Shown: one piece after another, positions 2,010 to 9,685 of the stretch
Numbering within the stretch: the stretch's first letter is position 1
How the letters are laid out: each line of letters opens with the position of its first letter
NCBI RefSeq assembly: GCF_018860365.1
Contig: NZ_JAHKPO010000003.1
Span: 930,001-994,000 of the forward strand
Length of the DNA: 64,000 nucleotides
Direction of reading: 5' to 3'
Source: Arenibacter algicola
GTDB lineage: Bacteria > Bacteroidota > Bacteroidia > Flavobacteriales > Flavobacteriaceae
Translations under genes and position numbers: made by a program
Notes under the pieces: model-generated
What the model was told of the DNA's origin: nothing
The model's database searches: none
The model's input: only the letters and a program-made list of their open reading frames with translations

Positions 2010-3437
2010 GTGTACGCCATAGTTGAAACAGAAACCACAGGATTACGGGGAGAGGATAATAAGATTACCGAGATCTGTATCTTGATTCACGATGGCCAAA
2101 AGGTGGTAAGGGAATTTTCTTCCTTGGTAAATCCCGAAGTATCTATAAAATATAGGGTTTCGCGTCGCAATGGTATCAAAGATGATATGTTGCTTAGGGC
2201 ACCTAAGTTCTATGAGATTGCCAAGGAGGTGGTAGCGCTCACCGAGGATTGTATTTTTATTTCACACCATGTCAATTTTAACTTCAACGGTATTAAAAAT
2301 GAACTGGTATCGCTAGGTGGTGTTTTTAAGCGCAAGAAGTTATCTACCCTAAGACTGTCTCGCAAACTAATACCCGGCCAACAAAGTTATAGTCTGGGAA
2401 CCGTGTGCAACCAGTTGGGCATTAATGTTGGTCATGTTCAAAGCGCCAAGGACAAAGCGGAAGCCACAGTTACCTTGCTAGAAAGACTCTGGGCAATGGA
2501 TACGGATGGGGTTTTTAATTTCATGTTGGGGCCAAAATCCGGTCAGGCAGGTGTACCTCCCCAATGGCCTAAAACTGTAGTGGCCCTACTGCCCAATGTT
2601 ACTGGAGTGTATTATTTTAAAAATGCACAGGGGAAAATCATTTATGTGGGCAAGGCCAAGGATATTAAACAAAGGGTGTTGAGCCATGTCTATAGCAAGG
2701 TTCACAAGGAAATGAGGTTGTGTTTTGAAACGGTACATATCGATTATACCCATACGGGAAGCGAATTGGTAGCCCTGCTATTGGAATCGGATGAAATAAA
2801 AAAGCACCTCCCTAAATTCAATCGGGCGCAAAAACGAATCGGATATAGATATGGGGTAGGTGCAAAAATGGATAAAAACGGAATCACAAATCTGTTTTAT
2901 GATCGATTGGGCAAACTGAAATCGCCATTGGCCTGTTTTTACAACCAAGGGGAATGTAGGGCCTTTTTGGAGGAATTGTGCGATACCTATAGTCTTTGTC
3001 CGCGGTTTTGCAGTTTACAGCATATTTCAGGGGCCTGTTTTCATTTTCACATTAAAAAATGTCATGGTATTTGTCGCGATATAGAAACTGTGGAAGCCTA
3101 TAATAAACGCGTGGAAAATGCTTTGATGCCGATAGCTGATGATAAAAATACTTACATTATAAAGACAGCTGGAAGAAACACAAATGAAAAATCGGTAATA
3201 GTTGTAGAAAATGGGGTTTATAAGGGTTTTGGGTATATGTCCAAAAGAAAAAGAATAAAGGCCCTTATGGATTATGATAAATTTATTACTCCCATGGCCG
3301 ATAACAATGATGTGCAAAAAATACTTAGACGATATTTAAGGAGAGGGGATGGGGAGAGTGTACTTATTGACTATCATAATGACGTAACTTCCCTTAATGA
3401 AATTCCTACATCTAGGGGCCGACAAGCTGAAATGTAA
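2010..3437 (+). CDS. Exonuclease-like domain fused to GIY-YIG nuclease (Cho/UvrC-like), exonuclease site degenerate
   Basis: A 475-residue protein starting at GTG. Residues 1-165 resemble the DnaQ/epsilon 3'-5' exonuclease fold. Residues about 190-275 are a GIY-YIG endonuclease domain with GVYYF, IYVGKAKD, Arg222, the catalytic Glu259 and Asn271. A Cys/His-rich segment (CPRFCSLQ then CFHFHIKKCHGIC) follows, as in the UvrC/Cho-like proteins common in Bacteroidota. The exonuclease half has lost its acidic signature: the usual D-x-E is E6-T-E8, the usual HN-x-x-FD is HHVNFN (Asn91 for Asp), and the last Asp position reads Lys149 next to Asp148. I infer that only the endonuclease half is active. 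The role is probably DNA repair incision. The stop codon overlaps the ECF promoter of the next gene. Confidence 0.85.
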   Translation: MYAIVETETTGLRGEDNKITEICILIHDGQKVVREFSSLVNPEVSIKYRVSRRNGIKDDMLLRAPKFYEIAKEVVALTEDCIFISHHVNFNFNGIKNELVSLGGVFKRKKLSTLRLSRKLIPGQQSYSLGTVCNQLGINVGHVQSAKDKAEATVTLLERLWAMDTDGVFNFMLGPKSGQAGVPPQWPKTVVALLPNVTGVYYFKNAQGKIIYVGKAKDIKQRVLSHVYSKVHKEMRLCFETVHIDYTHTGSELVALLLESDEIKKHLPKFNRAQKRIGYRYGVGAKMDKNGITNLFYDRLGKLKSPLACFYNQGECRAFLEELCDTYSLCPRFCSLQHISGACFHFHIKKCHGICRDIETVEAYNKRVENALMPIADDKNTYIIKTAGRNTNEKSVIVVENGVYKGFGYMSKRKRIKALMDYDKFITPMADNNDVQKILRRYLRRGDGESVLIDYHNDVTSLNEIPTSRGRQAEM

Positions 3438-3458
3438 CCCAATGGGACCGTTTACATC
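3434..3458 (+). promoter_or_regulatory. ECF-type promoter, copy 1 (GTAACC-N15-CATC)
   Basis: GTAACC lies at 3434-3439, with a 15-base spacer and CATC at 3455-3458 followed by AAA. The CATC box ends 29 bases before the ATG of the flavin reductase at 3488. The same hexamer, spacing and second box recur before four other transcription units in this window, including the ECF sigma gene. Confidence 0.8.
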
Positions 3459-3487
3459 AAATTAAGGTAACTATTTATTTTAAGAAG

Positions 3488-4177
3488 ATGGGCTTTACAT
3501 TTCCTTACAGGGTGAAAATTTTAGAAAAAAAATATCTCAACTACAATGTAATCCGATTTTGGATTCAAAAACCCTACGGATATACCCATAAACCTGGACA
3601 GGCCATAGAATTAAGTATCGATAAACCAGGGTATGAACTAGCAATTGCCCCTTTTACAATTACCAACTTAAATAGTGATCCTTATTTGGAATTGATTGTA
3701 AAGATCAACCCAGAGGTGAACAGTCTTACTTATGGATTGTCCGTTTTGGCAATAGGGGAGACCCTGCAAATCACAGAGCCCTGGGATTCCTACAACTATA
3801 AGGGTCCTGGAGTATTCATTGTTGCAGGTACGGGGATAACCCCTTTTTTGCCTATTTTAAAAGAACTTGAAGCCAAAGACGATGATATGCTAAAAGAACA
3901 TGTTTTACTATATGGTAATAGGACCAGGGAAGATATTTTGTTTTATAGGAAATTAAAGAAGGTTTTAGGAGAGAACTGTATACACATACTTAGTAGGTCA
4001 AAATCCCGGAATTCTATTTTTGGTAGAATAAATATTGATATTTTGCAACAGTATGTCCATGATCTTCACCAGTTTTTCTATATCTGTGGACCTAGGCACT
4101 TCGAAACAGATATAACCAAGCAGTTGGTAAGCATGGGGGTTAAGAGGGCTCGGATTCAAACTGGATATAAATTTTAA
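3488..4177 (+). CDS. FNR-like flavin/NAD(P)H oxidoreductase, paralogue 1
   Basis: A 229-residue soluble protein of the ferredoxin/flavodoxin-NADP reductase fold. The N-terminal half is the flavin-binding barrel. The nicotinamide-binding half carries GTGITPFLPIL (about residues 117-127) and the C-terminal YICGP motif. The usual Arg of the flavin-binding R-P-F-T/RxY(S/T) motif is replaced (IAPFT), and the same change occurs in the paralogue at 6598-7263. No Fe-S domain is fused, so the electron partner must be separate. The gene is preceded by ECF promoter copy 1 and is inferred to be induced by the sigma factor at 7465. The substrate is unknown. Confidence 0.85.
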   Translation: MGFTFPYRVKILEKKYLNYNVIRFWIQKPYGYTHKPGQAIELSIDKPGYELAIAPFTITNLNSDPYLELIVKINPEVNSLTYGLSVLAIGETLQITEPWDSYNYKGPGVFIVAGTGITPFLPILKELEAKDDDMLKEHVLLYGNRTREDILFYRKLKKVLGENCIHILSRSKSRNSIFGRINIDILQQYVHDLHQFFYICGPRHFETDITKQLVSMGVKRARIQTGYKF

Positions 4178-4532
4178 ATTCCCTTGTGTTTTAGGACCCG
4201 CTGTTTATTAAATGGACCAATCCAAAGCAGTATTCAAAATGTAACAATGAGGCACGTATATAGGAACTAGTTCGCAATTCTAGGATGACGAAAGCCTTTA
4301 AGCCTAAACCTTAAGCACTTCTGGACATCCTCGTCCAAGACAATTCCCATCAAACCCTTAGTCCATACAAATGCCATAAGTACTTCTCCTAGCACTTTTA
4401 TTGGGATGAGGAATCTTTGCAAGTCAATATGAGTATGTTAAAACAAAAAAAATACCCAACAACATATAGGTTTTAGCCTAACGCCATGGGTATTTTCAAC
4501 ATGAACCAATAAGTAAAAAAGAACACCTGAAA
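4178..4532. other. Intergenic stretch between convergent genes
   Basis: 355 bases between the convergent reductase and cytochrome genes. No coding region is convincing on either strand. The only structure I recognise is the minus-strand terminator near 4450-4494. Confidence 0.6.
4443..4496 (-). terminator. Rho-independent terminator of the di-haem cytochrome gene
   Basis: The outer stem is AATACCC (4451-4457) / GGGTATT (4488-4494). An inner hairpin (TAGG/CCTA, 4467-4480) fills the loop. Read on the minus strand, the stem is followed by a run of Ts (A-run at 4444-4452 on the plus strand). It lies about 40 bases beyond the stop of the minus-strand cytochrome gene. Confidence 0.75.
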
Positions 4533-5891
4533 TTATATTGATTTTAAATATTCCTCAATATCTGTTTTGTCCTGAGCGGATAATTCCAACTTAAAATGGG
4601 TGTCATAATGGTTAATGACATCGGTGAGGGTGGCAAATCTTCCGTCGTGATAGAATCCCCCTTTCATTCTGGCAAATAAGCCTCTTAAAGGAGTTGTTCT
4701 ATACATGCCGGTAGGAGATCTTTTTGCCTCAAAGTCGTCTATGCCAATTTCCTCGGCACTGTGAAGGTTGTATCCTGCATCAGTAAATATAGGTGCAATA
4801 TGGCAGCTGGCACATTGTGCCTTTCCATTGAACAACACCTTGCCCCGTGCAGCTGCTGTGGCATCGTAGCTTCCTTCTGGAGGAGTTGGAGCTGTTAAGG
4901 AGAGCTGATAGGCTTGCAAGCCTGGAAGCTTGGAAGTAATCAAATCCGGATCATTCACAATATTGCCAAAATTGTTTTCCGCAGCTATAGGGAATTGGCT
5001 TGCATTATCAAGTCTAGCATCGGTAAAACTGCCTTGACCGTGCATTTCCAAATTGGCTACAAAGGCATTCCAATAGACCATGTCTCCCCAGCCTGTATAG
5101 GTCGCTAGATTTACACCTTGTAGTCCGTAGGCGGCAGGTAGTAGATTGGCGGCAATACTCCCGTCCGGACGTAGTGCCTTGCCGTCCACAAAGAGGCCGG
5201 CATTAAATTTTCCAGGTCCCCACCCCGTAAGTACTGCTTCCACCGTAGGTTCGTCTACATGAAGTAGATCCGCCAAAAATTTCTTGTTGTTGGTCAAATT
5301 AACAATTGCTCCCACGTTGAGGTCCCTATTGGGATATCCGTCCAGCCGTCTACCTATTCCATCGGCAAAAGAATTGTCTACCGTAGAGTGACAAAGTGCA
5401 CAATTTATCCCCACAGCGGTCATGGCACCATCTTCATCGAAGGTTCCTTTAACTCCCACAACAGCGTTCAATTGTAATAGTGCAATGGTGGTTGCCGGAT
5501 CATTTAAGTCCACTTGGCCTGCCTGAATCGCGGCGACCACCTCTGCAGGCAAGGCCTCTGAATCTACCTTTAATCCTACACCCAATGCGGTAGCCGGACT
5601 AACCCCAACCCCGTAACCGCCATTGGCTTCTCCCAATATGGCCTTGTCTATATGCAAAATATCGCTCCAAAAGGCTTCGTCGCCGAAGGTGTCATACCTA
5701 AATATCTGTTTTCCCTCCGCAACCAGGGCAGGGTCTAGATGCAGGGTCAATGTGTCCGTCCTGGTTTCAATAATGGTGTCGTTCACTATTTCCGTAATTG
5801 TTTCGGTAATGGTTTCTGTCTTGGTACAGCTGATAGTCATGTTTAAAATCAGTAGTAGGCTAAGTAATTTGAATAAATTAGGTGCTTTCAT
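4533..5891 (-). CDS. Di-haem cytochrome c peroxidase-like lipoprotein
   Basis: A 452-residue lipoprotein: hydrophobic signal with lipobox Cys22, then a Thr/Glu-rich repetitive linker (TETITE-type repeats, residues 24-50) that probably spaces the enzyme from the membrane. There are two haem c motifs, CALCH at 164-168 and CASCH at 360-364. The C-terminal half (GKVLFNGKAQCASCH, later GGFYHDGRFATL) matches the MauG/cytochrome c peroxidase fold. The N-terminal half is unlike classical CcpA, so it may be a peroxidase or a related di-haem oxidase. It should act in the periplasm. Transcription is inferred from ECF promoter copy 2, with a terminator downstream, so it is probably a single-gene unit in a stress regulon. 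Confidence 0.85.
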   Translation of the reverse strand: MKAPNLFKLLSLLLILNMTISCTKTETITETITEIVNDTIIETRTDTLTLHLDPALVAEGKQIFRYDTFGDEAFWSDILHIDKAILGEANGGYGVGVSPATALGVGLKVDSEALPAEVVAAIQAGQVDLNDPATTIALLQLNAVVGVKGTFDEDGAMTAVGINCALCHSTVDNSFADGIGRRLDGYPNRDLNVGAIVNLTNNKKFLADLLHVDEPTVEAVLTGWGPGKFNAGLFVDGKALRPDGSIAANLLPAAYGLQGVNLATYTGWGDMVYWNAFVANLEMHGQGSFTDARLDNASQFPIAAENNFGNIVNDPDLITSKLPGLQAYQLSLTAPTPPEGSYDATAAARGKVLFNGKAQCASCHIAPIFTDAGYNLHSAEEIGIDDFEAKRSPTGMYRTTPLRGLFARMKGGFYHDGRFATLTDVINHYDTHFKLELSAQDKTDIEEYLKSI

Positions 5892-5920
5892 TTGTCGTTA
5901 TTTAATTGTTTTAAACTTTT

Positions 5921-5945
5921 GATGTAGAAAGCCCAATGGGGTTAC
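5921..5945 (-). promoter_or_regulatory. ECF-type promoter, copy 2 (GTAACC-N15-CATC)
   Basis: On the minus strand GTAACC spans 5945-5940, with a 15-base spacer and CATC at 5924-5921 followed by AAAAG. CATC ends 29 bases before the cytochrome ATG at 5891, the same distance as copy 1. Confidence 0.82.
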
Positions 5946-5959
5946 AAAAAAAATAAACT

Positions 5960-6595
5960 TTAGGAGGTGATGGAATTAAGAAATTGACGTTGGACCTTGC
6001 TTTTACGGAATTTTCCTGAAAAATAGCTGGTCTCGGTAACACTATTGGTGTCGCCAACGCCCCTAGATGCAACACATAAATGATGAGCTTCTACGGCTAT
6101 TGCAATGTCATCTATATCTAATAGATTTTTTAAAACCGTGCCCAGTTCCACTGTTAGTTTTTCCTGTACTTGTGGTTTACTGGCAATGAAGTGCACGATC
6201 CTATTAATTTTGGAAAGACCAATTACACGATTCTGTGGAAAATAGGCAATGCTAACTTTGCCAAAGAATGGCACAAAATGATGCTCGCAATAAGAGAAAA
6301 GGGTAATGTCCCTTATTAAGATCATTTCATCATATTTGTAATGGTTTCCAAAATAGGATATTTTAGGGAAATTGGATTTATCCAGTCCCATAAAGGCTTC
6401 ATTAACATACATTTTGGCAACTCGTTCCGGGGTATCCCGCAAACTGGGGTCTTCTAGATTGAGTTCCAATGTTTCCATTATTTTTTTGAAATGAAAGGCT
6501 ATGGCCTGTATTTTTTTCAATTTACCGTCCCCTGTAGTTATAGGCTCCTGATCTTTGATTTTTTCGGTCTTAATTAGTGTTCCGTTCGCTTTCAT
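5960..6595 (-). CDS. folE: GTP cyclohydrolase I
   Basis: A 211-residue enzyme converting GTP to 7,8-dihydroneopterin triphosphate, the first step of folate or tetrahydropterin synthesis. Zinc ligands are visible: Cys103 in SYCEHH with His106, and Cys174 in HHLCVASRGV. The catalytic His171/His172 region and the C-terminal TETSYFSGKF are conserved. The first 25 residues are a variable extension. The gene begins two bases after the stop of the upstream flavin reductase, so the two are almost certainly one operon, transcribed from ECF promoter copy 3. FolE in a stress-type regulon suggests pterin made on demand rather than, or in addition to, housekeeping folate synthesis; that is inference. Confidence 0.95.
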   Translation of the reverse strand: MKANGTLIKTEKIKDQEPITTGDGKLKKIQAIAFHFKKIMETLELNLEDPSLRDTPERVAKMYVNEAFMGLDKSNFPKISYFGNHYKYDEMILIRDITLFSYCEHHFVPFFGKVSIAYFPQNRVIGLSKINRIVHFIASKPQVQEKLTVELGTVLKNLLDIDDIAIAVEAHHLCVASRGVGDTNSVTETSYFSGKFRKSKVQRQFLNSITS

Positions 6596-6597
6596 AG

Positions 6598-7263
6598 TTA
6601 GTAGCCAGTTTGAATGTTATCTTCCTTTGCCCCACCTCTAATCAGATCTTTTTTTACGCTTTCCATAAACGCATCCGGGCCACAGACATAGAAATATTGA
6701 TCGAATACTCTAATTTTTGATACTAGATAGGCATAATCAATTCTGCCGTAATCGTAAATAGCAGATTGTTCCTCACTTAAGATATTGTAATAATGTTCCT
6801 TGAATAGGAGGCTGAGTTCGTCTTTTAAAATGATATCCTTGGTCATTCTGTTGGCGTAAATCAACTGATGATTTTCTATAACATTCTTATTCTTTAAATC
6901 CCAAAACATGGGTAGAAAGGGTGTTATGCCCGAACCGGCAGCAATAAAAGTACCCTTCCCTTTATATACATATGAATCCCAGGCATCTGTGATGAGCAGG
7001 GAATCGCTAATCTTTGCTTTGGACAATGCTTCAGTTAGACCTTTATGCTTGGGATAGACTTTTATGATAAGCCGTAAGTGTTTTTCTTCCGGCGAACCAA
7101 CCAGGGTGAAAGGTGCAAACTGGTTCCTGAATTGACGGCTATTGAGAGTAAGTTCTATAGCTTGTCCAATGTTGTGGGTAAATCCCTGGGGTTTTTCAAA
7201 AACCAATAGCATGACATTATGGGTTAGCCAGGATTTGTCGATAATATTTACGGTGTAGTTCAA
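6598..7263 (-). CDS. FNR-like flavin/NAD(P)H oxidoreductase, paralogue 2
   Basis: A 221-residue paralogue of the protein at 3488-4177. It has the same layout: a barrel with FAPFT in place of the usual Arg-Pro-Phe-Thr flavin motif, GSGITPFLP (about residues 112-120) and FYVCGPDAF near the C-terminus. It ends IQTGY, like its paralogue (IQTGYKF). It is first in an operon with folE, which starts two bases after its stop. The leader from ECF promoter copy 3 is about 115 bases, longer than for the other targets. It probably delivers electrons from NAD(P)H to an unidentified acceptor. That two such reductases share one regulon suggests distinct partners. Confidence 0.85.
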   Translation of the reverse strand: MNYTVNIIDKSWLTHNVMLLVFEKPQGFTHNIGQAIELTLNSRQFRNQFAPFTLVGSPEEKHLRLIIKVYPKHKGLTEALSKAKISDSLLITDAWDSYVYKGKGTFIAAGSGITPFLPMFWDLKNKNVIENHQLIYANRMTKDIILKDELSLLFKEHYYNILSEEQSAIYDYGRIDYAYLVSKIRVFDQYFYVCGPDAFMESVKKDLIRGGAKEDNIQTGY

Positions 7264-7387
7264 AATTGAAATGATTTAAAGGATTTGTATATTTTATAAT
7301 AGCACTATTTTGTATCTTGTAATAGTTTGATAATGTGTTCTTTATGATGTATAATTTTTATTTTTCAAAACAATTGCTATTAGTTTT

Positions 7388-7412
7388 GATGAAAATAATG
7401 CATTCGGGTTAC
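7388..7412 (-). promoter_or_regulatory. ECF-type promoter, copy 3, divergent from copy 4
   Basis: On the minus strand GTAACC spans 7412-7407, with a 15-base spacer and CATC at 7391-7388 followed by AAAAC. It points to the reductase-folE operon (ATG at 7263). It lies back to back with copy 4, eight bases away, so the two GTAACC boxes form an inverted repeat. Confidence 0.8.
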
Positions 7413-7420
7413 AAGATTTT

Positions 7421-7445
7421 GTAACCTTTTTTATCACTTGGCATC
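7421..7445 (+). promoter_or_regulatory. ECF-type promoter, copy 4 (autoregulation of the sigma gene)
   Basis: GTAACC is at 7421-7426, with a 15-base spacer and CATC at 7442-7445 followed by CAA. CATC ends 19 bases before the ATG at 7465. A TTG at 7438 in the same frame would lie inside this promoter, which argues for the ATG as start. Confidence 0.8.
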
Positions 7446-7464
7446 CAATATTAAAACAAGAACA

Positions 7465-8154
7465 ATGAATAACTGTAAACCCATAAGTAAAATAGACATG
7501 TCTGCTCTAGGAACCATACCGGATTGTATTGTGGTTAAGAAGGTGCTGGAGGGAGACACGGAATTATTTGAAATTCTATTAAGACGCTATAATGAGCTGT
7601 TATTCAGAACTATAAGGAGCTATATGGACAGGCCATCGGATATTGATGATGTAATGCAGGATACTTACATTAAGGCATTCCAAAAATTATATCAATTTAA
7701 AAATGAATCCTTATTTTCCACATGGCTGATACGGATAGGAATAAATGAGGCCTTACAGCGGAAAAGAAAGTCCAAGAGGTATCAAACGGTGGATATAAGT
7801 AACGAAAAAGAAATCATTCAAATAGCGGATATGTCCATTATGAACCCAGAAAGAAAAACAATGCATGCGGAATCGGTTCAAATGGTGGAAAAAGCAATAG
7901 ACCTTTTGCCGGAGAAATATAAGATTGTATACATGCTGAAGGAGGTCCAGGATTTGGAAATTTCTGAAATTTCGAATAGTCTGGGTTTGAGCAACAGTAA
8001 TGTGAAAGTGAGGCTTCATAGGGCAAGGAACATGATGAAGGATGCTATTATGAAGTTTTCCGACGCTAAAAATGCATTTGAGTTTGGCAATTCAAAATGC
8101 GACCGCTTGGTTGACCAAGTGATGGCGAAGATCCAGAAGCTTACTAGAAATTAG
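7465..8154 (+). CDS. ECF RNA polymerase sigma factor
   Basis: 229 residues from the ATG at 7465. It has region 2 (LLRRYNELLFRTIRSYM, then DIDDVMQDTYIKAF and the STWLIRIGINEAL segment) and region 4 with a helix-turn-helix (LPEKYKIVYMLKEVQDL, EISNSLGLSNSNVKVRLHRAR). A C-terminal tail of about 40 residues (MKFSDAKNAFEFGNSKCDRLVDQVM) extends past region 4 and carries the protein's second cysteine; the other is near residue 25. An in-frame TTG at 7438 is rejected because it overlaps the promoter. No anti-sigma factor is encoded next to it, so the tail may take part in control. Five matching promoters suggest it drives the reductases, folE, the di-haem cytochrome, the DoxX gene and itself. Confidence 0.92.
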   Translation: MNNCKPISKIDMSALGTIPDCIVVKKVLEGDTELFEILLRRYNELLFRTIRSYMDRPSDIDDVMQDTYIKAFQKLYQFKNESLFSTWLIRIGINEALQRKRKSKRYQTVDISNEKEIIQIADMSIMNPERKTMHAESVQMVEKAIDLLPEKYKIVYMLKEVQDLEISEISNSLGLSNSNVKVRLHRARNMMKDAIMKFSDAKNAFEFGNSKCDRLVDQVMAKIQKLTRN

Positions 8155-8373
8155 TCAATATATTTTATTACTTGGATAAGAGCATTTTTTTAGGTAATCG
8201 ATAAGGAGTATTCAGCTATTATAGGTCCAAGTGCTGCCTTACAATTTCAATATCAATTTAGAAGTAATACCAATCAGTTTACGGTTAACAATTAAGCTAT
8301 GTAATGGTAGGTCGCCAGTATGGAGCAATCTACTTTGTACCCTAAATTATAAGAAATAATTATTATCAGTTTT

Positions 8374-8398
8374 GTAACCCATAGCATCTTATTTCATC
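8374..8398 (+). promoter_or_regulatory. ECF-type promoter, copy 5 (GTAACC-N15-CATC)
   Basis: GTAACC is at 8374-8379, with a 15-base spacer and CATC at 8395-8398 followed by AAAAG. CATC ends 30 bases before the DoxX-like ATG at 8429. The gene lies 270 bases beyond the sigma gene and therefore has its own promoter. Confidence 0.8.
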
Positions 8399-8428
8399 AA
8401 AAGTTCATAATATTTAAACAAGATAATT

Positions 8429-8800
8429 ATGAATGCAAAAGCAAAGTTTGTTAGTACCCTGCTCAAGTATACGTTTGGATTGGTACCTATTGTTGCCGGT
8501 CTGGATAAGTTTACAAATATTCTCGTAGATTGGACCACATATTCTTCCCCTGGGTTAATGGATTTATTGCCTATTACCACCGCTGTCTTTATGGGTATTG
8601 TTGGGGTTATTGAAATAGGAGCGGGTATTTTGGTTTTGGTAAAACCGTCCATTGGTGCGCTGGTCGTTTCAGCTTGGTTGGTTCTTATAGCCTTGACGTT
8701 GATAATTAGCGGTCAATATTTGGATGTTGCTGTTAGGGATGTTGTAATGGCCATTGGTGCATTCTCCTTGGCTAAATTGTCCAAAACAACTACAACATAG
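8429..8800 (+). CDS. DoxX-like integral membrane protein
   Basis: A 123-residue protein with about four hydrophobic helices (residues about 10-26, 45-70, 74-95 and 98-117). It resembles DoxX/DoxD-type small membrane proteins (YGLVPIVAGLDKF-like first helix, later IGAGILVLVKPSIGA). DoxX proteins occur with quinone- or thiol-linked redox enzymes and with oxidative-stress systems; a molecular activity is not established for this branch. It is preceded by ECF promoter copy 5 and followed by a strong hairpin. Regulation with two flavin reductases and a di-haem cytochrome suggests a membrane redox role; this is inference. Confidence 0.75.
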   Translation: MNAKAKFVSTLLKYTFGLVPIVAGLDKFTNILVDWTTYSSPGLMDLLPITTAVFMGIVGVIEIGAGILVLVKPSIGALVVSAWLVLIALTLIISGQYLDVAVRDVVMAIGAFSLAKLSKTTTT

Positions 8801-9082: not shown

Positions 9083-9685
9083 CTATTTGGCTTCCAATGG
9101 TTGGGGTGTAGCTAGTATGGCCGCAGGCACTACATTATCAATTGGTTTAATTGTTTTTAAATAGGCAAAAATAGCCTTAAGGTCCTCATCAGGTAAATTC
9201 CGATATTCGGTCCATGGCATGGGAGGTAACAGCGGTCTTGTGTTATCCATTCCTTTGAATTTCCCTTCTTTTATGGCCTTTAAGAATTGTGCTTCCGACC
9301 AGTTGCCGATTCCGGATTCATCAGGAGTAAGATTAGCGGCAAAAGAGGTTCCCCAGGGTCCTACGGCGGCAGTAAGTCCCATACTGAATAGCACATAAGA
9401 TTTTGCAGTTTCCTTGTCGTAAGGTGGCAGGTTCTCTTGGGAAGGGTGCCCGGAGAGCCTTCTTTCCGGATCAACCTCCGGACCTCTGTCCGTCATTATT
9501 TTAGGGGAATGACAATCGTTGCAACCAACGGATGCAACTAACAGTTGACCTCTTTTTACCTTATCGACGACAGTATTAGGTTCTGCTTTTGCCACTACGG
9601 CTTTGGCAATTTCTTTTTGCTTGGGAGAATTACAGGCAACAACGATAATTCCCAACATGCTAAATACTAGATAACACTTTTTCAT
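9083..9685 (-). CDS. Mono-haem cytochrome c lipoprotein
   Basis: 200 residues from the ATG at 9685, chosen because it gives a clean lipoprotein signal (MKKCYLVFSMLGIIVVAC, Cys18). An upstream in-frame extension to 9853 encodes no recognisable sequence and is rejected. There is one haem motif, CNDCH at 55-59, followed by the segment MTDRGPEVDPERRLSGHP. A probable distal Met lies in PPMPWTEYRNL. The C-terminal part (LPDEDLKAIFAYLKTIKPI) is the standard cytochrome c end. It is a likely periplasmic electron carrier. No ECF motif is seen upstream, so it is probably outside that regulon despite proximity. Confidence 0.85.
   Translation of the reverse strand: MKKCYLVFSMLGIIVVACNSPKQKEIAKAVVAKAEPNTVVDKVKRGQLLVASVGCNDCHSPKIMTDRGPEVDPERRLSGHPSQENLPPYDKETAKSYVLFSMGLTAAVGPWGTSFAANLTPDESGIGNWSEAQFLKAIKEGKFKGMDNTRPLLPPMPWTEYRNLPDEDLKAIFAYLKTIKPIDNVVPAAILATPQPLEAK

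Follow-up and report, generated by a model that had tools for sequence, protein, structure and literature searches.

A gene cluster at positions 3488 to 8800 of the window (a 64,000-nucleotide stretch of the Arenibacter algicola genome; contig NZ_JAHKPO010000003.1, positions 930,001 to 994,000) is most probably the regulon of one autoregulated extracytoplasmic function (ECF) sigma factor, which would drive a redox module. In this genome the putative regulon comprises FNR1, a MauG-like gene, an FNR2-folE unit, the sigma gene itself and doxX. The sigma factor would direct RNA polymerase to TTTTGTAACC-N15-CATCNAA promoters, an assignment strongly supported by comparison, and since its own promoter is among the targets, a positive feedback loop would result. 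An earlier note, made from the letters of this DNA, had already proposed an ECF regulon here, and that proposal is now supported by promoters conserved with an exact spacer, by the scarcity of sites in genomes that lack the sigma gene, by targets dispersed away from the sigma locus and by gene co-occurrence. As judged from sequence comparison, the pairing of sigma factor and promoter is strong, and the genes very probably work together as a single stress response that reinforces itself; the gene content suggests an envelope redox module. An autoregulated ECF regulon is an ordinary kind of thing, and this one is unusually cleanly defined.

An exact search of the window for GTAACC-N15-CATC returned the five copies previously reported, at 3434-3458 (+), 5945-5921 (-), 7412-7388 (-), 7421-7445 (+) and 8374-8398 (+), where 0.05 were expected from shuffles. 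As features, the promoters span 3434 to 3461 (plus strand; GTAAC-N16-CATCAAA, before FNR1), 5918 to 5945 (minus; MauG-like gene), 7385 to 7412 (minus; FNR2-folE), 7421 to 7448 (plus; sigma gene, predicted to be autoregulatory) and 8374 to 8401 (plus; doxX), the first being conserved in orthologs and the other four in relatives. Together they precede each of the five transcription units between 3488 and 8800, as the earlier note had claimed. The distance of 19 to 30 bases between CATC and the start codon that it described as usual holds for four units (sigma gene, 19 nt; FNR1, 29; MauG-like gene, 29; DoxX-like gene, 30; sequence and list of open reading frames, ORFs), but FNR2-folE is an exception, with 124 nt to a TTG start. 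The folE gene has no site of its own and starts 2 nt behind FNR2, so that five promoters serve all units of the cluster.

Taken by itself, the short motif shows no enrichment genome-wide. The genome-wide search that had been proposed was run over the whole 5.75 Mb and gave 12 matches to GTAACC-N15-CATC compared with 19 for the reversed control; five are clustered at gene starts, and all seven outside the cluster lie inside ORFs. We therefore dropped the short-motif count as a sign of further targets. GTAAC-N16-CATCNAA gave eight matches against ten in the control, five in the cluster and the other three inside ORFs, while TTGTAAC-N16-CATCNAA gave four against one, all four in the cluster, although the FNR1 site, with AT in place of TT, escapes this last pattern. 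With the short motif at chance frequency, the cluster thus stands out by concentration, orientation and flanking letters.

The promoters are conserved in relatives that carry the sigma gene. Of 100 related genomes, 15 carry matches to the sigma factor of at least 45% identity (16 genes in all), after which scores drop from 183 to 93 bits; the closest named relative of the sigma factor, in Arenibacter arenosicollis, is 98% identical. We scanned 17 loci (15 from relatives, one from a MAG, or metagenome-assembled genome, and the window) for TAAC-N15/16/17-CATC and found 64 rows. In 15 of the 17 loci, 41 of these rows stand before sigma, FNR1, FNR2, MauG-like, DoxX or DUF4142 genes, and all 41 have a spacer of 16, GTAAC, a T before GTAAC and NAA after CATC. 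The scan required neither the G, the flanking T nor the NAA, and 16 was one of three spacers allowed (for two of the 41 rows, T and NAA were read from the genome-wide TTGTAAC-N16-CATCNAA scan). The remaining 23 rows include 18 that the scan's own criterion places within ORFs. The FNR1 site is likewise kept at all seven FNR1 orthologs of at least 50% identity in the 100 genomes (G000, G003, G007, G016, G011 and G055, with AATC in G044; genomes, contigs and loci are cited by our G, C and L handles, the window being part of G000, contig C11). Conservation of the motif upstream of orthologous sigma genes across species and genera, with its exact spacer, and a GTAAC -35 element in 41 promoters bear out two points raised in the earlier note, the second being an ECF-type -35 element with an AAC core. 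The A-rich stretch that it placed after CATC had caught the flanking letters in part, the conserved ones being NAA and the preceding T. On this comparative evidence, the sigma factor is predicted to have both an autoregulated gene and regulon promoters of its own.

Site counts also follow the presence of the sigma gene. TTGTAAC-N16-CATCNAA occurs 39 times in the 15 sigma-bearing genomes, 38 times at regulon genes (exception, G030 C15), whereas the 85 genomes without the sigma gene hold 15 sites, never two in one genome; of these 15, the four whose surroundings we read all overlap ORFs. At least two sites are present in 10 of 15 sigma-bearing genomes versus none of 85 others (p=2e-10, kinship uncorrected) and, within the genus, in all eight sigma-bearing genomes versus none of ten others (kinship again uncorrected).

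The same sites are found before the same genes away from the sigma locus, which argues that the regulon acts in trans. In G011, one such site precedes the FNR1 ortholog on a different contig and a second precedes the DoxX ortholog at a distance of 13 kb; each of the four sites in this genome belongs to a regulon gene. A site that fell outside the locus first fetched from G055 stands before FNR1. A scan of the 15 sigma-bearing genomes with a looser -10 element (NATCNAA), from which we claim only two cases, added a MauG-like gene on another contig of G036 with a TATCTAA variant directly upstream, and an operon of G044 (L050) encoding OB-fold, cupredoxin, DUF5777, haem-binding and YceI proteins with an AATCCAA variant. 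The regulon of relatives would also take in a DUF4142-cupredoxin unit and, in one genome, the OB-fold/cupredoxin/DUF5777/haem-binding/YceI operon. The description of a complete local regulon therefore stands for this genome, to the extent that exact patterns can tell, but not for relatives, where partial dispersal marks the regulon as trans-acting rather than local by nature.

Co-occurrence points the same way. DoxX accompanies the sigma gene in 12 of 15 sigma-bearing genomes versus 2 of 85 others (one gene broken, in G009; one of 34% identity, in G062), the MauG-like gene in 9 of 15 versus 1 of 85 (a weak 47-bit match in G023), and FNR1 orthologs of at least 50% identity in 7 of 15 versus none of 85; all 18 members of the genus have more distant FNR paralogs, whether or not they carry the sigma gene. 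By locus, DoxX is the most frequent partner of sigma (12 of 17, or 13 of 17 with a tblastn match in L057). The broken DoxX-like gene of sigma-less G009 (C28; L158, 339-730) has upstream a promoter copy with a spacer of 17 and AATCTAA, which looks like decay after loss of sigma. Separately, a fused ResB/CcsA-like cytochrome c biogenesis gene (about 1,080 residues, by eye) lies near sigma or, in G036, beside the MauG-like gene (L050, L051, L056 and L157).

The promoters of the sigma gene and of FNR2-folE diverge, with their -35 elements back to back at 7408 to 7425 (GTTAC-N8-GTAAC, spacing measured), where they form the palindrome GTTACAAAATTTTGTAAC. In 16 divergent loci these elements are 8 bp apart in 11, 7 to 10 bp in 15 and 22 bp in one, and two polymerases could probably not sit on both promoters simultaneously. 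Palindrome and single copies might instead be operators of a dimeric transcription factor, and the near-perfect symmetry around an 8-bp core in 11 of 16 loci would suit this. We nevertheless consider it very unlikely: one half only, 16 bp from CATCNAA, is found at FNR1, MauG-like, DUF4142 and many DoxX genes, an operator would not require CATCNAA at a set distance, and site counts track sigma presence across genomes. The E. coli sigma-E consensus moreover has the same AAC-to-TC spacing as the sites here. Two TTTTGTAAC elements back to back yield the palindrome unaided, and since regulon promoters favour TTTT before GTAAC (53-site matrix), close packing can explain it. That the motif clustered by chance, or spread within the locus as a mobile repeat, would fit the background frequency of its short form elsewhere in the genome (12 versus 19 in the control), yet the copies differ in spacer sequence while their ends are fixed, and the pattern recurs at the same genes in other genera, which leaves this explanation with next to no probability.

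The sigma gene (7465 to 8154, plus strand) encodes 229 residues with Pfam matches to region 2 (Sigma70_r2) and region 4 (Sigma70_r4_2) and none to region 3, the architecture of ECF (group 4) factors. The protein is homologous to the SigH, SigE and SigW structures, its predicted model is all-helical, and it scores 212 bits against NCBIfam NF008888 (PRK11922, 'RNA polymerase sigma factor'; cut-off 204), a family whose name carries no function. Beyond region 4 extends a tail of about 35 residues. In an alignment covering 25 of 31 sigma loci, F207, C212 and D213 of this tail are invariant in all 25 relatives, down to 28% identity; in the remaining six, checked separately, F and C are present in six, D in four and N in two, so that over all 31 relatives F207 and C212 are found in 31 and D213 in 29. 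AlphaFold places a helix at 210-228 with a predicted local distance difference test score (pLDDT) of about 80, after a poorly modelled linker. The only cysteines of the window sigma factor are 4, 21 and 212, one of them in the tail, and the linker has no CXC. We found no Pfam match to SnoaL or TPR in the protein, and its tail compares with about 120-200 residues in ECF41/ECF56 and ECF42. By eye, no ORF of at least 30 residues within 450 nt downstream of sigma is common beyond close relatives (22 of 31 loci), and no anti-sigma gene was recognised among the sigma neighbours listed. The locus therefore departs from the canonical ECF arrangement with a neighbouring, co-transcribed anti-sigma gene. 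Two further observations concern the sigma neighbourhood: a TPR-like protein with a seeming C-terminal helix-turn-helix (by eye), which could be another regulator, is encoded near sigma in two genera (L050, 4003-5661; L051, 6433-8076), and G044 has two sigma paralogs (C1 and C4; L050 and L052), each with its own GTAAC-N16-CATC promoter.

To judge from gene content, the products would form an envelope-spanning redox module, with flavin reductases and a pterin-making enzyme in the cytosol, a DoxX-like protein in the membrane, and haem and copper electron carriers facing the periplasm or outer membrane that would scavenge or bypass oxidants. Since no anti-sigma gene was found beside sigma, its activity may be set by the sigma factor itself, possibly through thiol oxidation or metal binding at the invariant cysteine of the short tail, and feedback would then amplify the response. 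We hypothesize on this one conserved cysteine that the tail is a built-in switch. DoxX or an unlinked protein might act as anti-sigma factor or sensor instead, the cysteine tail being merely structural; no other gene neighbours sigma as frequently as DoxX, which is often transcribed divergently from it, and the known DoxX-containing ECF regulons of Haemophilus RpoE2 and Caulobacter SigF use a separate anti-sigma factor, according to the retrieved passages of both papers (PMC7907618, PMC8224329). We regard this as somewhat unlikely, given that 3 of 15 sigma-bearing genomes lack DoxX, that DoxX is itself fronted by a regulon promoter in many loci and lies 13 kb from the sigma locus in G011, and that the 22 loci inspected by eye share no anti-sigma-like downstream ORF beyond close relatives.

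The signal to which the regulon responds might be a metal, copper or another, and not oxidants themselves. Cupredoxins lie near sigma in several loci, and the passages at hand describe copper induction of Caulobacter SigF, whose regulon includes a DoxX gene (PMC8224329), and metal-sensing cysteine tails in CorE (PMC8999054). The window sigma factor, by contrast, has its single tail cysteine and no CXC in the linker, and no metal efflux gene was recognised among ORFs near sigma, where no profile search was aimed at such genes; we judge this reading unlikely. Less likely again is photo-oxidative (singlet oxygen) or light stress, for which the Rhodobacter RpoE-ChrR regulon, with its ECF logic and FolE-type enzyme, would be the model (PMC7074977). 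Photolyase, cyclopropane synthase and ChrR genes were not noticed in the ORF lists, again with no profile search aimed at them. FolE2 belongs to a different family from FolE, and the window protein is a FolE (PF01227). Nothing specific to light or photolyase appeared in the neighbours or in the literature passages retrieved. Of the 'redox or light stress' suggested earlier, the redox half is thus reasonable on gene content, and the light half finds no support.

Elsewhere in the phylum, the gene pool and promoter class recur in part. NF008888 is matched over its cut-off in 10 of 296 sampled genomes. For a wider set we took 14 loci from 13 genomes (eight over the cut-off, six below), choosing profile matches that reach the tail and skipping those that end before it. 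BLAST found partner genes near sigma in nine of the 14: DoxX-FolE-FNR in L140; DUF4142, cupredoxin, FNR and MauG-like genes in L148; FolE and FNR in L149; DUF4142 in L144; FolE in L141; and DoxX in L143, L145, L146 and L152. GTAAC-N16-NATCNAA lies near sigma in seven (L139, L140, L141, L142, L143, L145 and L146), the L142 site pointing away from the sigma gene. Three loci (L144, L148 and L152) have GTAAC elements without a NATCNAA -10 element at spacing 16.

Several observations weigh against the regulon as we propose it. In the wider set, BLAST found no partner gene in L139, L142, L147, L150 and L151, and GTAAC-N16-NATCNAA was not found near sigma in seven of 14 loci (L144 and L147 to L152). 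Among the 17 closer loci, L053 and L064 have no exact site, although one-base variants with the same spacer are readable in L053 to L057. DoxX is missing from 3 and the MauG-like gene from 6 of the 15 sigma-bearing genomes, and thus no target is universal. The genome gives 35 matches to the sigma family profile, which makes cross-recognition of the sites by other ECF factors possible. An anti-sigma factor is possibly encoded elsewhere, or DoxX possibly has that role. The sigma model has a pLDDT of 75 and a predicted template modelling score (pTM) of 0.49, with moderate confidence in the tail helix and no readable interface; at this pTM, docking of the tail cannot be read from it. Finally, the 53-site matrix includes sites selected by the motif, so that the invariance of its GTAAC and ATC columns carries no weight as evidence, unlike the 41-site set.

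The individual genes refine the earlier descriptions. What had been called two flavin reductases are more exactly FAD-NAD(P)H modules of the FNR/NOX type. FNR1 (3488 to 4177, plus strand), a stand-alone module, and FNR2 (6598 to 7263, minus strand), the first gene of its unit, both match PF08022 (FAD_binding_8) and PF00175 (NAD_binding_1) above cut-off. Residues 3-229 of FNR1 align end to end with 8qq5 and also with the C-terminal part of 8qt6, which we take to be SpNOX entries. The TTG start of FNR2 is also present in relatives at L045, L046 and L051. The FolE paralog (GTP cyclohydrolase I; 5960 to 6595, minus strand; Pfam and NCBIfam) is an extra copy, since the genome has four FolE-like genes in all. 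The MauG-like di-haem c-type protein (4533 to 5891, minus strand) has two CxxCH motifs (C164 and C360) that are invariant in ten of ten members, as is C22, after a leader that by eye resembles that of a lipoprotein. Its match to the NCBIfam MauG family (TTQ_mauG) has E=3e-11 but only 43 bits against a cut-off of 444, and it scores 24.4 bits against the 25.6 cut-off of Pfam CCP_MauG, which six of ten members match. Its structure model (pLDDT 42) is too poor for use, and a sequence search found no relative among solved structures. For the small 'DoxX protein' (8429 to 8800, plus strand), nothing firmer than a weak match to the DoxX/MauE superfamily can be upheld; its sole profile match is MauE (E=0.03), and the relative at L050 matches DoxX at E=1e-4, just under cut-off. 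Two flanking genes were noted as well. A c-type cytochrome gene just past DoxX (9083-9685) lacks the motif, and we leave it out of the regulon. A DEDD-type exonuclease with a GIY-YIG/UvrC-like part (2010-3437) ends inside the FNR1 promoter and is still beside FNR1 in G011 (L073), where FNR1 and sigma are on different contigs.

To our knowledge, few ECF regulons of Bacteroidota have been characterized apart from those of polysaccharide and iron systems. From sequence alone, the analysis supplies a candidate promoter code and a candidate set of genes for an ECF sigma factor of patchy distribution in the phylum. One response would tie together DUF4142 proteins, small DoxX-like proteins, stand-alone NOX-type reductases, a second FolE and MauG-like lipoproteins, and if the tail cysteine is the sensor, the sigma factor would be a very small one-component redox regulator. 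More tentatively, all of this may be joined into an undescribed, Bacteroidota-wide ECF class without an anti-sigma factor, in which the tail of about 35 residues with its invariant F-x4-C serves as a thiol or metal switch, and a self-amplifying loop and competing back-to-back promoters drive a new envelope electron-transfer defence pathway composed of the DoxX-like protein, NOX-like reductases, extra FolE, MauG-like enzyme and DUF4142-cupredoxin. We found no account of the regulon in open-licence PMC papers, and the retrieved passages of PMC8103513 and PMC6180224 hold nothing on the sigma family; the 2021 ECF classification (10.1093/nar/gkaa1229), which was outside this search, may hold its group number and motif.

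Compared with known systems, as far as the retrieved passages of the cited papers describe them, the sigma factor resembles CorE and CorE2 (former ECF44, now ECF238 or unclassified) in having no anti-sigma factor and a cysteine-bearing C-terminal extension (PMC8999054). It differs in its one tail cysteine and lack of CXC, CorE being defined by a cysteine-rich C-terminal domain and a CXC in the linker. In H. influenzae, RpoE2, which is similar to Neisseria SigE, controls a DoxX operon and answers hypochlorous acid (HOCl; PMC7907618), and in Caulobacter the SigF-NrsF regulon, which includes a DoxX gene and, in its table, the sigma gene itself, answers copper (PMC8224329). The likeness is that of an ECF sigma factor over a DoxX-family gene under oxidant (HOCl) or copper stress. 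Both of those factors have an anti-sigma partner (a cytoplasmic protein of 67 residues in H. influenzae; NrsF in Caulobacter), whereas none was found beside sigma here. Partners there are methionine sulfoxide reductases with DUF692/DUF2282 proteins (Caulobacter) or COG3220/COG3767 proteins (Haemophilus), compared with FNR modules, FolE, a MauG-like protein and DUF4142-cupredoxin here; Pfam scans of eight window proteins and nine from two relatives matched no DUF692/DUF2282 or Msr domain in those proteins. The Rhodobacter RpoE-ChrR regulon, which includes FolE2 and answers singlet oxygen (PMC7074977), is likewise small, ECF-controlled and partly conserved across species, and it contains a GTP cyclohydrolase together with cytochrome c2; it differs in its ChrR anti-sigma factor, photolyase, cyclopropane fatty acid synthase and RpoHII, and in having FolE2 in place of FolE (PMC7074977, PMC5507510). 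The likeness of the present cluster to the Haemophilus, Caulobacter and Rhodobacter regulons is, on this comparison, one of analogy and not of membership.

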